DNA of 64,000 nt from Spiroplasma corruscae (GTDB lineage Bacteria > Bacillota_I > Bacilli_A > Mycoplasmatales > Mycoplasmataceae), in assembly GCF_002237575.1 (NCBI RefSeq), contig NZ_CP022535.1, forward strand, positions 62,001 through 126,000. The letters are read 5' to 3'. The translations under genes and the position numbers were made by a program. Below, one piece after another: positions 3,282 to 43,632 of the stretch (position 1 is the stretch's first letter; every line of letters starts with the position of its first letter). The notes beneath the pieces are model-generated. The model ran no database searches. It was not told where the DNA came from and worked only from the letters and a program-made list of their open reading frames with translations.

Positions 3282-4211
3282 ATGAGAAAATTAAAAGTAA
3301 AAGATATAATAAATAACTTTAATTTAGAAATACTTTCTAACAATGATCTAATGAAAGAAAGAGTGATAGAAGTATATGGTGTTAACAGGGCTGGTTTAGA
3401 ATTAGCAGGTTATTTTGAAGAAGGGCAAAAGGCTCATAGGGTTATAATGATGTCTACAAAGGAATATCAGTATATCATGAACTTTAAGCCAGAAGATAGA
3501 ATAGATAGATATAAAAACCTGTTTAGACAAAATGTCCCTTTAATTATAGTTACTAAAAAATTTGAAGATGACTTATTAATACAAACAGCAGTAAAAGAAA
3601 ATGTTTTAATTGTAAGATCTGAAAGTGACTCAACAAGTAATTTTACTCAAAACTTGTTAGAGTTTATGGATGATTATTTTGCACCAAGCATTGAAGTTCA
3701 TGGTTCATTAGTAAATGTTTTTGGTAAAGGCGTTTTATTAATTGGTGAGTCTGGTATCGGTAAATCAGAAATTACCTTAGACTTAATTAAGGCAAATCAT
3801 TTATTTGTTGGAGACGACAGAATTGTTGTTGTGAGAAAGTTTAATGAATTATATGGTAAGAGTCATGAAATTCTAAAAAATTTGGTAGAAGTTAGAGGTA
3901 TTGGTATAGTTGATGTATCTAAGACAAATGGTTATCAAGTAATAATGAATGATACAAAAATAGACTTAGTTATTGAATTATCACAATTTAAAAACAATGG
4001 TTCAGATGAGTATGACAGAATTGGTAGCGATTTTCAAATGTATCCTTTACTTGAAGCTGAAGTACCTTATATTAAAGTACCAGTAGCAACTGGTAGAAAT
4101 ATTCCAAATATTATCGAGGTCGCTGTTGCAAAATTAAAACTTAAACAAAACTCACAATATCAAGATGAAATCGATATAATTACAGAAAGAGCGATGAAGT
4201 ACAGTGATTAA
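3282..4211 (+). CDS. hprK: HPr kinase/phosphorylase
   Basis: HprK phosphorylates and dephosphorylates the regulatory serine of the PTS protein HPr, linking glycolytic state to sugar uptake. The 309-residue product has the usual two parts: an N-terminal MurF-like domain and a C-terminal kinase domain with Walker A GESGIGKS at residues 155-162. These are followed by the VGDDRIVV segment and the HprK signature EVRGIGIVDV. The target HPr (39649-39912) is present and carries Ser46 in the expected place. The gene lies 2 nt after the ECF S component and its last 8 bases overlap the GTG start proposed for the first lgt, the hprK-lgt order common in Firmicutes and Mollicutes. Length is normal. Confidence 0.97.
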   Translation: MRKLKVKDIINNFNLEILSNNDLMKERVIEVYGVNRAGLELAGYFEEGQKAHRVIMMSTKEYQYIMNFKPEDRIDRYKNLFRQNVPLIIVTKKFEDDLLIQTAVKENVLIVRSESDSTSNFTQNLLEFMDDYFAPSIEVHGSLVNVFGKGVLLIGESGIGKSEITLDLIKANHLFVGDDRIVVVRKFNELYGKSHEILKNLVEVRGIGIVDVSKTNGYQVIMNDTKIDLVIELSQFKNNGSDEYDRIGSDFQMYPLLEAEVPYIKVPVATGRNIPNIIEVAVAKLKLKQNSQYQDEIDIITERAMKYSD

Positions 4212-19734: not shown

Positions 19735-21858
19735 ATGACAAATACAAAAAATATTTCAAAAGAAATATCATCTATAATATCAGTTGAAAATAATGATCTT
19801 AAAAATGAAAATGCAAATATGAGTGGTGATACACCTAGTGGTAAGATGATGAAGTTTGCTTCAATTACATCAAAAGAATATGCACTTGATAATCTTCTTG
19901 ATAAGCATCACGCAGACCTACATAGAAAATCATTAATCCATATACATGATTTAGATTATTATGCAACAAAATCAGCTACTTGTGTTCAGTATAACCTTGA
20001 TGAAATATTTAAAGATGGATTTTATACAAGAAACGGTCACATAAGAGAACCAAAATCAATTGCAGTTTATGCAGAACTAGCAGCAATAGTTTTTCAAACT
20101 GCACAAAATGAAATGCATGGGGGACAAGCAATTCCTGCATTTGATTATTTTATGGCAAAAGGTGTAGCCAAATCATTTAAAAAAAGATTATATGAAAATA
20201 TAATATCCTACTTAGAAATTTCTGATTCTATATTTACAGAACAGGATATTAAAGAAATTGTATATCAAAATGAACTTATATCATTTAATAATACCAAAGT
20301 AGAAAATCTCAAAAAGCTACTTATAAAATATGGTATTTCTTCGAAGATTGTTAATAAACTAATATTAAATGCAAATAAAAAGGTAGAATCAGATACTGAC
20401 CAAGCAATGGAAGGGTTTATTTATAATTTAAATACACAACATTCAAGAGGTGGAAATCAAGTAGTTTTTTCATCAATTAATATTGGTACTGATACTTCAG
20501 ACGAAGGTAGACAAGTTATTAAATCATTATTTAAAGCATTAAGAAATGGTTTAGGAAATGGAGAAACTTCAATTTTCCCAATTGTTATATTTAAAGTTAA
20601 AGAAGGAATAAATTTCTCTACAAAAGATAAAAAAAGAGCTGATTCATTAAGTCAGTCTGAATGAGATAATGTCAAAGATTGAGAATCAAAAAACTTTGAT
20701 TTATTCTTAGATGCTTTAAAAACAACTAGCACAAGACTATTTCCTAACTTCATGTTTTTAGATCAACCATATAATAAACATGAAAAATGAAATGAAAATG
20801 ATGATAATAGATGGATGTATGAACCAGCAACAATGGGCTGTAGAACTAGAGTGTTTGAAAACATCCGTGGTGAAAAAACTAGTGTTGGTAGAGGTAACTT
20901 ATCATTTACCTCTCTAAATTTACCTTATATAGCCCTTGAATTACTTGAAGAAAAAGAATTGCTTGTTAACAACTTTATCAATTTAGAAACAACTTCAAGA
21001 GAGAAAATAAAAGCAGATTTTCTTACAAAAGTAAATCAGTTTTCAAATGTGGTTTGCCAACAAATGTACAATAGATTTAAGTTCCAAATATCAGCAGTTG
21101 CGAAAGAGTTCCCATTCCTAATGAGAAATAATGTATTAACTGGTGGACAATTGCTAACTTCTGGTGATAGTGTTGAAAGTGTATTTGTTAATGGAACTCT
21201 AACAATCGGTTTTGTAGGGTTAGCAGAATGTTTAAAAGCACTTTTGGGTTATCATCATGGTGAAAGTGAAGAAGCACAAGAGTTTGGTTTAGAAGTAGTT
21301 AGGGAAATGAATAAAGTATCTGAACTATGAAAAGAAAAAACTCATCTAAATTTCGGTGTAATTGCTACACCTGCAGAGTCAGTTGCTGGTAGAATGGCAA
21401 AAATAACAAGGTCTAGATTTGGTTCTATAAATGAAGTTACTACAAGGGATTACTTCACAAATTCAAATCATATTCCTGTATACTATAATCTATCTGCGTA
21501 TCAAAAGATACAAAAGGAAGCTGCGTATCATAGCATTACATTAGGTGGTAATATAAGTTACATCGAACTTGATGGAGAAGCTAAAAAAAACTTACACGCA
21601 ATTTTATCGGTTATAGATTATATGAAAAGTAGTGGAATAAATTATGGAAGTCTAAACCACCCTGTTGATAGATGCAAAAAATGTCACTACACATCTTTAA
21701 TACAAATTGATTGTCCAAAGTGCGGAAATAATGATATATCTAGAACGAGAAGAATCACAGGATATCTTGTCGGAGATTTAGATGGTTGGAATTCTGGTAA
21801 ACAGGCCGAAGAAAAAGAGAGAGTAAAACATCTAAAACAAGAAAATGAGAATTCTTAA
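19735..21858 (+). CDS. nrdD: Anaerobic ribonucleoside-triphosphate reductase (class III)
   Basis: NrdD reduces ribonucleoside triphosphates to deoxy forms without oxygen, using a glycyl radical. The 707-residue product has the N-terminal part with [13 protein letters not shown] and [15 protein letters not shown], and the core segment [21 protein letters not shown]-terminal zinc site is formed by CKKC and CPKC, and the radical loop [14 protein letters not shown] places the radical on Gly676. The three conserved parts are joined across UGA Trp codons at 20662, 20680, 20788 and 21328. It starts 76 nt after deoD behind GGGGGC. The activase gene nrdG overlaps its 3' end. A class I enzyme (39993-43632) is also encoded, so DNA precursor synthesis is possible with and without oxygen. 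Confidence 0.95.
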
Positions 21859-22351
21859 AATCTTTAAAGAGACTATAAGTGATGGACCTGGCTTCAGATA
21901 TTCAATTTATGTTGCTGGATGTTTGCATGCTTGTAAAGGATGTCATAATCTTCTTAGTTGAAGTTTTAAAATTGGAAGAGATTTTGATAAGGAATATGAA
22001 AATCAGATTATAAACGAAATTAAATCAAATCCATTACTAAGTGGCGTCACTTTCTCAGGCGGAGATCCAATGTTTAGTGCAAAAGAAGTTCTTGAATTGA
22101 TAAAAGTTATTAAGAAAGAAACGGCTATGAATATTTGATTATATACTGGATTTACAATTGAAGAAATTATTAACCAAAGAGATAATGGTGAAGTTGAAAG
22201 AAATAGATTTGAAATATTAAAAGAGATTGATACATTAGTTGATGGTAGATGAGTACAAGAACTTTATGATCCACAATTAGAGTTTAGAGGAAGTAGTAAT
22301 CAAAGAATCATTAACACATATGAATGGTTGTCTAATAATAATTTGATATAA
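21845..22351 (+). CDS. nrdG: Anaerobic ribonucleotide reductase activating protein (radical SAM)
   Basis: NrdG uses S-adenosylmethionine and a [4Fe-4S] cluster to create the glycyl radical on NrdD. The 168-residue product has the cluster motif C26-LHA-C30-KG-C33, preceded by [19 protein letters not shown] and followed by [11 protein letters not shown], the usual SAM-binding GGEP-like segment. UGA Trp codons occur at 21959, 22136 and 22250. It overlaps nrdD by 14 nt and its stop is the first part of a strong hairpin. The pfl activase at 33794 is its distant relative in the same window. Confidence 0.93.
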
Positions 22352-31392: not shown

Positions 31393-33450
31393 ATGAGATT
31401 TAAAGAGTGAGAAGGATTCCAATCAGGTGAATGAGTTGGAGAAGTCGATGTTAGAGACTTCATTCAAAAAAATTATAAACCTTATATCGGTGATGACTCT
31501 TTCTTAAAAGGACCTACTGCTAATACTAATAAATTATGAGCAGAAATAATGGAACTTAATAAAAAAGAAAGAGAAGCGGGTGGTGTTTTAGATGTAGATA
31601 ATGATGTTCCGTCTACCATTACTTCACATGCAGCTGGTTATATTAAAAAAGAGTTTGAAAAAGTTGTTGGTTTACAAACTGATAAACCTTTTAAAAGAGC
31701 GTTGATGCCATGAGGTGGTATTAATATGGCCATCCAAGCCAATGAGTCTTATGGATTCACTGTGTCGGATAGAGTCAAAGAAATATTTACAAAATATAGA
31801 AAAACACATAACCAAGGTGTGTTTGATGCATATACACCAGATATGAGGAAAATTCGAAAGAGTCATATTGTTACTGGTCTTCCAGATACGTACGGAAGAG
31901 GAAGAATTATTGGAGATTATAGAAGACTAGCTTTATATGGTTCTGATTACTTAATTGAACAAAAAATTAAGGATGCAACTTTATATGAAGGAGAAATGAC
32001 TGAAAATAAAATTAAATTACGTGAAGAAATTTCAGAACAAATAAATGCCTTAAAAGATATAACAAAAATGGCTGCTTCTTACGGATTTGATGTATCCAAA
32101 CCTGCAAAAAATGCTGTTGAAGCATTTAATTTTACATATTTAGCTTACCTAGCAGCAATTAAACAAAATAATGGAGCAGCTGAATCTTTTGGTAGAACAG
32201 CAACATTTTTAGATATTTATATTGAAAGAGATTTTAAAAATGGAGTATTAACTGAAGAAGAAGCACAAGAGTTGGTAGATCATTTAGTAATGAAACTAAG
32301 AATTGTTAAGTTTGCTCGTACACCTGCCTACAATCAAATATTCTCAGGAGACCCTGTTTGGGCTACTGAATCTATAGGAGGTATGGGCTTGGATGGACGT
32401 ACATTAGTAACTAAAAACTGTTTCAGATATATTCATACTTTATCTAATATGGGTCCATCACCAGAACCAAACTTAACAATCTTATGGTCATCAAATTTAC
32501 CTCAAAACTTTAAAGAGTTTTGTTCAAAATATTCAATTATGTTTTCTTCAATGCAATACGAAAATGATGACATAATGAGAACAACACATGGAGACGATTA
32601 TGCAATAGCTTGTTGTGTATCACCAATGAAAGTCGGAAAACAAATGCAATTTTTTGGTGCTAGAACAAATCTAGCTAAAACATTATTATATGCAATTAAT
32701 GGTGGAATTGACGAAATATCTAAAGAACAGATTACTCCTATTTTTGAACCAGTTCAAACTGGCGATGGTCCGTTAAACTTTGATGAGGTTTGAAAAAAAC
32801 TTGATAATATGATGTCTTGAGTAGCTGATAAATATGTAAATACACTAAATGTTATTCATTATATGCATGACAAATATTATTATGAAAGTGCAGAAATGTG
32901 TTTTTATGATACTAAAGTACATAGGTTTTTTGCAACGGGTATAGCTGGGTTATCAGTTGTAGCTGATTCTTTATCAGCAATTAAATATGCTAAGGTGTTT
33001 CCGGTAAGGGATGAAAAAGGCATTGTTGTTTCTTATAAAACAGAAGGAGATTTCCCAAAATTTGGAAATGACGATGACAGGGTTGATGAATTAGCAAAAG
33101 ATATTGTGAAAATTTTTATGAATAAAGTTAGATCACACAATACATATAGAGATTCGGAAGCAACTATGTCAGTTTTAACAATTACATCAAATGTAGTTTA
33201 CGGTAAATCAACTGGAGACACCCCTTGTGGAAGACGTTATCCAGAAGCGTTTGCACCTGGTGCTAACCCAATGCATGGAAGAGATTGTTCAGGTGCTGTA
33301 GCGTCACTAGCATCAGTTTCAAAAATACCTTTTAAACATGCGGCTGATGGTATATCTAATACTTTTTCGGTAATTCCAAATGCATTAGGCAAAGATGAAG
33401 ATTTAATTATTCCTGGAGAAATAAAAATCTCCGGAAAGTTACCAAAGTAG
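31393..33450 (+). CDS. pflB: Pyruvate formate-lyase, main subunit lacking the glycyl-radical domain
   Basis: Pyruvate formate-lyase converts pyruvate and CoA to acetyl-CoA and formate. The 685-residue protein contains the barrel part: RFKEWEGFQSGEWVGEVDVR at the start, [18 protein letters not shown], and the catalytic cysteines C407-C408 in IACCVSPM. Its end reads [19 protein letters not shown], then LPK and TAG. Normal enzymes of about 760 residues continue from here into the radical domain with RVSGYAV. That domain is missing here and is encoded by the next gene. The join is not a simple frameshift: 53 nt with its own ribosome-binding site separate the genes. The protein should be inactive alone and depend on the small subunit. 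Confidence 0.93.
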
Positions 33451-33503: not shown

Positions 33504-33752
33504 ATGAAAACAAAAGTATCGCAACAACAAGTTGAAAATTTAGTAAATATGTTAGATGGTTATATGGGACATGGTGGACATCATTTAAATGTAAACGTTC
33601 TTGATAGAGAAATATTAAGAGATGCACAAAAACACCCTGAAAGTTATCCACAACTAACAATTAGAGTTTCTGGATATGCAGTCAACTTTGTAAAATTAAC
33701 CAAAGAGCAACAAGAAGAAGTTATTTCAAGAACTTTTCATGAATCAATGTAA
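33504..33752 (+). CDS. grcA: Stand-alone glycyl-radical subunit of pyruvate formate-lyase (GrcA/YfiD-like)
   Basis: The 82-residue product aligns with the C-terminal domain of pyruvate formate-lyase: [20 protein letters not shown], then [13 protein letters not shown] with the radical Gly57, then [18 protein letters not shown] as the usual C-terminus. In Escherichia coli a similar separate protein (YfiD/GrcA) replaces a damaged C-terminus of a full-length enzyme. Here the main subunit has no such domain, so this protein should be an obligate partner that carries the radical. AGAGGAG lies 7 nt before the ATG, and a TATAAT at 33474-33479 could give separate transcription. The activase pflA follows after a hairpin. 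Confidence 0.92.
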
Positions 33753-39992: not shown

Positions 39993-41015
39993 ATGGCAAA
40001 GCAAAAAAACAACTATTATAACGAGTCGTTATCACCACTTGAATATGCAATGAATAACTTCAATGGTAAAATGCGCTCAGTAAATTGAAATGTTATTAAT
40101 GATGACAAAGATTTAGAAGTATGAAATAGGGCTACCCAAAACTTTTGACTACCTGAAAAAATTCCAGTTTCTAATGATTTAGTATCTTGAAATAGTCTTG
40201 AACCTAAGTGACAAGAACTAATAACACGTACATTTACAGGACTTACATTATTAGATACTATTCAGGCAACAATAGGTGATATAGCTCAAATACCAAATTC
40301 ATTAACTGACCATGAGCAAGTTGTATATGCAAACTTCTCATTTATGGTAGCTGTTCATGCTAGATCATATGGAACCATATTTTCAACACTATGTTCAAGT
40401 GAACAAATTGAAGAAGCACATGAATGAGTAATTAATACAAAAAGTTTACAAGATAGAGCAAGAATTCTTATCCCTTATTATACTGGAAAAGATATTCTTA
40501 AATCAAAAGTTGCAGCTGCTTTAATGCCAGGTTTCTTGTTATATGGAGGGTTCTATTTACCTTTTTATTTATCAGCAAGGGGAAAACTTTCAAATACCTC
40601 TGACATAATAAGACTAATTTTAAGAGATAAGGTAATTCATAATTATTATAGTGGTTATAAGTATCAAAAAAAGGTACAAAAGTTAGATATAAAACAACAA
40701 GAAGAAATGAAAAAGTTTGTATTTGATTTATTGTACGAGTTAATTGATCTCGAAAAAAAATACCTTTTGGAACTTTATGATGGTTTTGGAATAGATGAGG
40801 ACGCCATTAGATTTAGTGTATATAATGCTGGAAAGTTTTTGCAAAACCTTGGTTATGAATCTCCATTCACAGAAGAAGAAACAAGAATAGATCCGGAAAT
40901 TTTTACTCAATTATCTGCTAGAGCAGATGAAAATCATGATTTCTTTTCTGGGAATGGTTCTTCATACATAATGGGTATAACTGAAGAGACTGAAGATTCA
41001 GATTGAGAATTTTAA
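39993..41015 (+). CDS. nrdF: Class I ribonucleotide reductase small subunit, class Ie (metal-free) type
   Basis: NrdF generates the radical that starts ribonucleoside diphosphate reduction in NrdE. The 340-residue protein follows class Ib NrdF (LLDTIQATIGDIAQIP, HARSYGTIFSTLC, FLLYGGFYLPFYLSARGKLS, NYYSGYKYQ). Of the six usual metal ligands only D88, H122 and H216 remain. The three glutamates are replaced by V119, P179 (LMPGF) and K213 (RDKVIH). This Val-Pro-Lys set is the signature of class Ie, known from Mesoplasma florum, in which a Tyr is converted to a DOPA radical and no metal is bound. The matching tyrosine is Y126. NrdI, needed for the modification, is the next gene (3 nt). AGGAAGG precedes the ATG. 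Confidence 0.95.
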
Positions 41016-41018
41016 AGT

Positions 41019-41483
41019 ATGCATAATGATATTATTTTAGTAGATGATGAGGATGTTATAAAACCAAGTGGGGAAATACATGTCGTATATTTCTCATCAA
41101 TATCTAATAATACTCATAGGTTTATTGAAAAACTAGATTTCATTAGTTCTAGGATACCATATAATATGGATGAAGAATTAATAATAGATATTGATTATGT
41201 TTTAATAACTCCTACTTACGGCGGCGGAGGAAATGATACAGCTGGAGCTGTTCCGAAACAAGTAATCAAGTTTCTTAATAATGAAAACAACCGTAAATAC
41301 TGTAGAGGCGTTGTTGCATCTGGTAACACAAATTTTGGTGACTCATTTGCAATTGCAGGACCAATTTTATCTAAAAAATTAAAAGTCCCATTACTATACC
41401 AATTTGAATTATTAGGTACAAGTAATGATGTAATAACATTAAAAAAAATTCTAAATAATTTTTGAAACAAAGGGGATGGTTAA
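41019..41483 (+). CDS. nrdI: Flavodoxin-like NrdI
   Basis: NrdI is an FMN protein that supplies oxidant for class Ib NrdF and is required for tyrosine-to-DOPA conversion in class Ie. The 154-residue product has the FMN phosphate loop [17 protein letters not shown] (about residues 23-39), then [12 protein letters not shown] and [14 protein letters not shown], the usual family segments, and [12 protein letters not shown] near the end. It lies between nrdF and nrdE: 3 nt after nrdF, with its stop 4 nt before the nrdE start used here. This is the standard NrdF-I-E block of Mollicutes, although many other bacteria use H-I-E-F order. Confidence 0.95.
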
Positions 41484-41487
41484 AAAT

Positions 41488-43632
41488 ATGAATAATAAAG
41501 AAATAGTAATAGACAATGAAGAATATATAAAATTGAATGCGAGATCAAAAATATTTGTTAAAGATAAAGATAATTTTATATTAGATAAGGAAGCTGCGAA
41601 GCTATACATTGAACAACACGTAAAACCAAACTTTATGCATTTTAATAGTATAGAAGAAAGAATTCAATATTTAGTTAAAAATAATTATTATGATGAAGAA
41701 GTTATTAATAAATATAAAATGAATGAAATTATTGAATTAACAAACTTAGCATATAACTATAATCATACATTTCCTAGTTTTATGGGTGCGTTAAAGTTCT
41801 ATAATGCATATGCATTAAAAACATTTGATGGAAAAATGTATTTAGAAAATTATGAAGAAAGAATAGTGATGAATGCATTGTTCTTGGCGGGCGGAGACTT
41901 TAAAAAATCTGAAGACTTATTAAAACAAATGATATTAAATAGATATCAACCAGCAACACCAACATTCTTAAATGCAGGAAAAAAACAAAGAGGAGAATAT
42001 GTTTCTTGTTATCTGCTAAGAGTCGAAGATAATATGGAATCAATTGCAAGAGCCGTGACAACTTCCCTACAACTTTCAAAAAGAGGTGGTGGAGTAGCGT
42101 TATGTTTAACAAACTTACGTGAATTCGGGGCACCTATAAAAAACATTGAAAACCAAGCAACAGGTGTAATACCAGTTATGAAAATATTAGAAGATACTTT
42201 TTCTTATGCTAATCAGTTAGGTCAAAGACAAGGTGCAGGAGCGGTATATTTAAATGTTCATCACCCTGATATTATTTCATTCTTAGATACTAAAAGAGAA
42301 AACGCGGATGAAAAAATAAGAATTAAATCCTTATCTCTTGGAGTTGTAGTTCCAGATATAACATTTGAATTAGCAAAAGATAATAAAGAAATGGCCTTGT
42401 TCAGTCCTTATGATGTCGAAAAAGTTTATGGTAAAGCATTTTCAGATATTTCTGTTACTGAAGAATATGAAAACATGCTAAATAACCCAAACATAAAAAA
42501 AACATTTATTAATGCAAGAAAGTTATTTCAAACAATAGCTGAACTTCACTTTGAAAGTGGTTACCCTTATCTTTTATTTGATGATACTGTTAATAATAGA
42601 AATGCACATCAAGGAAGAATTGTTATGAGTAACTTATGCAGCGAAATTGTACAAGTAAGTACACCAAGTACTTTTAATGAAGATTTATCATTTGATAAAT
42701 TAGGTGAAGATATTTGTTGTAACCTTGGGAGTCTAAATATAGCAAAAGTTATGGAAAGTGGTAAGGATTTCGGTCATGTTGTATTTGATGCGATATGATC
42801 ATTAGATTATGTCTCTAGAAACTCTGATTTAAAAAGTGCGCCATCTATAGAAAATGGAAATAAAAATAACCATGCCGTTGGTTTAGGAGCAATGAACTTA
42901 CACGGTTTCTTAGCAACAAATAAAATTTATTATAATTCTAACGAAGCAGTTGATTTTACTAATATGTTCTTTTATACACTTGCTTATAATGCATTTAGAG
43001 CTTCAACCAAGTTAGCCCAAAAATACGGTCCCTTTAATAATTTCAAGTCTACAAAGTTTGCAGATGGTTCTTATTTCGATAAGTATTTAAAATGTAATAA
43101 AGATGAATGAACACCTAAGACTGAAACAGTGAAAGAAATATTCAAGAAATATGGAGTAGATATCCCTACTCAACAAAATTGATTAAACTTAGTTGAGGAA
43201 ATTAAAAAGAATGGGCTTGCGAACTCACATCTATTAGCAGTTGCTCCAACTGGTTCAATAAGTTATTTATCTTCTTGTACACCTAGTTTACAACCTGTTG
43301 TAGCACCTGTTGAAGTAAGAAAAGAAGGTAAACTTGGAAGAGTGTATGTTCCTGCATATAATATTAACTTTGATAATATGCAATATTATGCAATGGATGC
43401 ATACAATGTAGGACCGGATTGAATAATTGATGTTGCAGCAGCAGCTCAACAACACGTTGATCAAGCTATATCATTAACATTATTCATGACTGATAAAGCT
43501 ACTACTAGAGATTTAAATAAAGCATACATAAGAGCATTTAAAAAAGGGTGCGCTTCAATTTATTATGTAAGGGTACGTCAAGATGTACTTGAAGATAGTG
43601 AAAATTATGATTGTGATGCTTGTGTAATATAG
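41488..43632 (+). CDS. nrdE: Class I ribonucleotide reductase large subunit
   Basis: NrdE reduces ribonucleoside diphosphates using the radical from NrdF. The 714-residue protein has the redox Cys in [12 protein letters not shown], the radical-site segment SNLCSEIVQ with the thiyl Cys, [29 protein letters not shown], and the C-terminal electron-relay pair in CDACVI. Start choice: the ATG at 41488 has room for the AAAGGGG site; the in-frame ATG at 41476 lies only one base after that site. UGA Trp codons occur at 42796, 43108, 43180 and 43420. With NrdD-NrdG it gives the cell two independent routes to deoxynucleotides. A strong terminator follows. Confidence 0.95.

Follow-up and report, generated by a model that had tools for sequence, protein, structure and literature searches.

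We analysed a window of 64,000 nucleotides of Spiroplasma corruscae DNA (contig NZ_CP022535.1, positions 62,001 to 126,000), which uses genetic code 4. Genes for the radical and catalytic subunits of a class I ribonucleotide reductase (RNR) and for a partner flavoprotein were identified on the forward strand (window positions):

39993..41015, forward strand: nrdF, 340 aa, assigned as the radical subunit (R2e) of a class Ie enzyme of the Val-Pro-Lys (VPK) type, read with TGA as Trp
41019..41483, forward strand: nrdI, flavoprotein, predicted supplier of the oxidant (TIGR00333, 179 bits)
41476..43632, forward strand: nrdE, class Ib/Ie catalytic subunit R1 (TIGR04170, 1000 bits)

The nrdF frame is intact solely under code 4, where seven TGA codons are read as Trp, and is broken under table 11. 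A sequence resembling a ribosome-binding site (AGGAAGG) lies upstream. As the initial annotation had it, nrdI is the gene directly after nrdF; it begins just past the nrdF stop, and nrdE overlaps its end. The top PDB matches of NrdI are NrdI proteins from other VPK systems (6EBQ and 7MMP). The nrdFIE order matches that of published VPK loci and occurs in virtually all VPK genomes (PMC11846895), and nrdI and nrdE adjoin nrdF in 38 of 38 loci (L001-L038). The genome (1.20 Mb, 99.8% complete) encodes one NrdF and one class I/II-type R1, with nrdE as its sole PF02867 match. A genome-wide search found no second NrdF or other class I/II R1, and so no further class I or class II RNR.

Metal-site residues and relatives of NrdF

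The metal ligands of class Ib proteins are four carboxylates and two histidines. NrdF has lost three of these carboxylates, as read at these codons:

40254..40256, forward strand: D88 (GAT), the sole metal-ligand carboxylate retained, invariant in 151 sequences
40347..40349, forward strand: V119 (GTA), in place of a metal-ligand Glu (alignment)
40356..40358, forward strand: H122 (CAT) (alignment and codon reading)
40368..40370, forward strand: Y126 (TAT), counterpart of the Mesoplasma florum DOPA tyrosine (PMC7615503, PMC8902622)
40527..40529, forward strand: P179 (CCA), in place of a metal-ligand Glu (alignment)
40629..40631, forward strand: K213 (AAG), in place of a metal-ligand Glu (alignment)
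40638..40640, forward strand: H216 (CAT) (alignment and codon reading)

Codon reading shows that all seven residues, and their positions, had been correctly named from the DNA at the outset. The claimed loss of three glutamates is confirmed, as the columns read VPK here and EEE in class Ib-type proteins. A shifted frame or alignment that would bring the glutamates back was considered and is excluded, because all 340 residues align to M. florum class Ie NrdF (6GP2) without a gap.

This protein is also the closest solved structure (E 5e-200; 287 of 340 residues identical, or 84%, with the same residue numbering). VPK proteins from the 7MMP and 6EBO series rank next, and class Ib structures lie far lower among the PDB matches. 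M. florum NrdF (6GP2, 6GP3, 8BT3, 8BT4) likewise has VPK, the same length and an NrdI partner. W52, D88, Q91, Y126, L183 and F187 carry identical numbers in the two proteins, and none of the 53 substitutions falls at a tested site residue. NrdF proteins of Streptococcus pyogenes (7MMP series) and Aerococcus urinae (6EBO series) are also VPK class Ie proteins encoded in nrdFIE with an NrdI partner, but belong to another order and score about 585 bits against NrdF, versus 667 for M. florum. Gardnerella (Bifidobacterium) vaginalis NrdF is likewise a class Ie, DOPA-containing protein in an organism with a class III RNR (PMC11846895), but has QSK instead of VPK and the gene order nrdHIEF. Class Ib NrdF shares the fold, NrdI dependence and tyrosine position, but differs in its EEE ligands and is 27-56% identical among the sequences compared.

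The curated models that match NrdF (TIGR04171 and NF010572) both name class Ib NrdF only, because the hits include no separate class Ie model. Our predicted class Ie assignment draws on the residues at the site and on the tree. For these we gathered NrdF from 148 genomes within the order and from extra genome stretches, together with the 80 top-ranking named records. Across the resulting 151-sequence alignment the metal-ligand columns read EEE in 81 class Ib-type proteins, VPK in 68 (the window's NrdF and its own genome copy among them) and QSK in two, both actinobacterial; D88, H122, Y126, H216 and W52 are invariant throughout. Within the order, all 59 close relatives examined at residue level have VPK, as do eight named records; the order sample contains 64 VPK-type genomes, five of which fell outside this reading. 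Among the names on VPK records are Mesoplasma grammopterae, Spiroplasma, Mycoplasma, Mycoplasmopsis, Streptococcus ictaluri, Lactobacillus kitasatonis and Atopobium. EEE is found in every more distant mollicute NrdF that was read (27-37% identical).

The 68 VPK sequences are monophyletic (support 1.0) and group with QSK (support 0.994), in agreement with the published origin, in which a QSK-like ancestor gave rise to VPK (PMC11846895). Class Ie also includes QSK proteins (PMC11846895), so VPK alone does not define the class. The statement that Val-Pro-Lys defines class Ie thus stands for the placement of this NrdF but not as a sole definition. About 128 VPK genomes, 93 of them in Mycoplasmatales, were already catalogued (PMC11846895).

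Predicted radical formation

We consider NrdF to be an ordinary VPK-type class Ie R2, an orthologue of M. florum NrdF that would form its DOPA radical via NrdI and without metal, with a probability of about 95%. Q91, Y163, L183, F187, W52, D88 and K213 take part in the oxidant path and radical gate of the M. florum protein (PMC7615503; QM/MM, PMC8902622), for which calculations show a K213-D88 salt bridge (PMC8902622). W52, D88, Q91, V119, H122, Y126, Y163, P179, L183, F187, K213 and H216 are all at M. florum numbers in NrdF and invariant in the 68 VPK sequences. From the retention of residues such as W52, D88, Q91 and K213, together with nrdFIE and NrdI, we infer that NrdI provides the oxidant, that Y126 becomes DOPA and that the radical is metal-free. 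A VPK NrdF accompanied by its NrdI is best read as a metal-free DOPA-radical enzyme.

NrdI, encoded in the operon, would send a superoxide-type oxidant along a channel between R2 and NrdI to a metal-empty site. Y126 would be hydroxylated to DOPA and then kept as a radical beside D88 and K213, and the radical would reach the catalytic cysteine of NrdE by way of W52. DOPA, the absence of metal, the oxidant and the radical path are in this scheme carried over from M. florum. Ribonucleoside diphosphates would be reduced by NrdF/NrdE in the presence of oxygen, and NrdD/NrdG would take over without it, a division suggested by family knowledge. NrdF may bind metal weakly or opportunistically, which would be compatible with its sequence.

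It is very improbable that NrdF is a class Ib protein with one or two metals still bound via D88, H122 and H216, with VPK as a tolerated change. D88 and both histidines are indeed retained; however, the three glutamates are swapped for the exact residues of the M. florum protein, which has been solved and assayed as metal-free (PMC11846895, PMC7615503), VPK is invariant in 68 sequences, and K213 would bring a positive charge into the site. Still less credible is a decaying or non-functional NrdF that leaves all deoxynucleotide synthesis to NrdD: the NrdD/NrdG pair is intact in the genome, but so are the nrdF frame with its upstream AGGAAGG, nrdI and nrdE, every radical-path residue is retained, and nrdF is kept without full-length NrdD in 5 of 16 congeners, where the class Ie enzyme thus appears sufficient.

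Class III reductase and split glycyl-radical enzymes

The window also encodes a class III RNR and its activase:

19735..21858, forward strand: nrdD, class III RNR, a single chain that includes the glycyl-radical region (RITGYL motif) and has no ATP-cone
21845..22351, forward strand: nrdG, radical-SAM activase of NrdD (TIGR02491)

The class III enzyme reported at 19735 is therefore real, given its RITGYL glycyl-radical motif and adjoining nrdG. Its match to PRK07111 starts at profile position 92 and there is no match to PF03477; lacking the N-terminal ATP-cone, NrdD would be without that overall activity switch.

The initial annotation called the combination of class Ie and class III enzymes a rare pairing, which does not hold for this lineage. 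VPK-type NrdF is present in 16 of 16 congeners sampled and full-length NrdD in 11 of them, VPK NrdF and NrdD occur together in 12 to 14 of the 64 VPK-type genomes of the order sample, and a class Ie (QSK) and a class III enzyme have both been reported for G. vaginalis (PMC11846895). In the published survey, class Ie is the only RNR in 65 of 128 VPK species, and about half therefore have another RNR (PMC11846895). Outside the genus, one genome (G112) has VPK NrdF and NrdD and two (G018 and G050) have VPK NrdF and a divergent NrdD. In another genus, three genomes (G026, G052 and G067) have NrdD and no NrdF match. Unlike S. corruscae, the sampled genomes of the Mesoplasma grammopterae genus (g2) have no NrdD match. 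A literature search on Spiroplasma with NrdD found nothing on point.

One congener without full-length NrdD retains a 33-aa NrdD remnant beside pieces of nrdG (L137, G091:C1:667518-667616), which suggests that the class III system was lost recently within the genus. In another congener, a second NrdD-like gene adjoins an nrdG/pflA-like gene (L138, G121:C1:1036878-1038572); it is divergent (about 28-33% identical) and contains an internal TAA.

Pyruvate formate-lyase (PFL) is encoded in the window in two pieces (31393-33450 and 33504-33752, forward strand). The 685-aa body ends partway through the glycine-radical domain and covers PF01228 positions 1-50; positions 50-106, including the motif RVSGY, are on an 82-aa protein that has its own GAGGAG ahead of the ATG. 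As the body is without its own radical glycine, it would depend on the small protein as an obligatory subunit. The radical piece is a short separate frame (83-153 aa) in 22 of 22 genomes of the order with PFL, and the pieces are tens of kilobases apart or on separate contigs in G061, G112, G105, G081 and G114. In the class sample, pieces of about 80-110 aa occur in some families and fused proteins of about 750 aa in others. Such a gene in Ca. Mycoplasma girerdii was described in 2017 as a replacement part, termed an autonomous glycyl radical cofactor (PMC5476646), and Escherichia coli PFL cut at residue 695 is active in vitro with YfiD (PMC8683613).

NrdD itself is split in another genus of the order (g32), at four loci:

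L126: 832-2787 and 3330-3545
L127: 724-2730 (body with ATP-cone) and 3295-3543
L131: 673-2730 and 3255-3509
L132: 787-2937 and 511-783

The body stops right past one Cys pair, and a separate frame of 70-90 aa carries the other pair (CPVCG) and the glycyl-radical motif SRITGYL; the zinc site would thus be common to two chains. The small gene follows nrdG in L126, L127 and L131 and precedes the body in L132. None of the genomes with split NrdD has an NrdF match in the order sample. We found no paper on a split class III RNR.

Probable iron use and proposed roles of the two reductases

Genes resembling sufS, sufU and sufB are clustered at one locus of the genome (L176, C1:241081-244326); SufU was called by PF01592, and SufS and SufB were named from sequence, without a model. 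The window encodes NrdG and PflA, both radical-SAM, Fe-S activases, and an iron-type alcohol dehydrogenase, AdhE. Thus, the cell appears to use iron. The claim that DNA precursors are made aerobically without iron or manganese probably holds for the radical subunit only and does not extend to an iron-independent cell, as the suf-type genes, NrdG and PflA indicate; these genes speak against a cell without iron use.

Compatible with a class Ie NrdF, and concerning biological role, is the proposal that the two reductases form a truly unusual metal-sparing strategy, with a metal-free RNR in air and a glycyl-radical enzyme anaerobically. We regard this as rather doubtful. Both enzymes are encoded and the genome has no match to the Nramp or FeoB families; these were the two families sought, and manganese or iron uptake is not thereby absent. 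However, the combination is common in the genus and published in Gardnerella (PMC11846895), and iron use is indicated by the Fe-S activases and by the genes like sufS, sufU and sufB. It is conceivable, though rather doubtful, that aerobic synthesis of DNA precursors has become independent of metals in this organism and its congeners, with iron kept for the Fe-S activases of anaerobic glycyl-radical enzymes. If so, switching reductases would also switch metal dependence.

The enzyme type and operon are already documented, and the pairing with an oxygen-sensitive reductase is documented or common in the lineage. NrdF adds one more orthologue to the known VPK set and carries little weight alone; it is a clean case of a metal-free enzyme predicted from sequence. 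The split glycyl-radical enzymes are potentially more interesting than NrdF itself. The genus, with class Ie plus class III in some members and class Ie only in others, is a convenient comparison set, and the question it poses is what benefit a class III enzyme brings when the aerobic reductase needs no metal.
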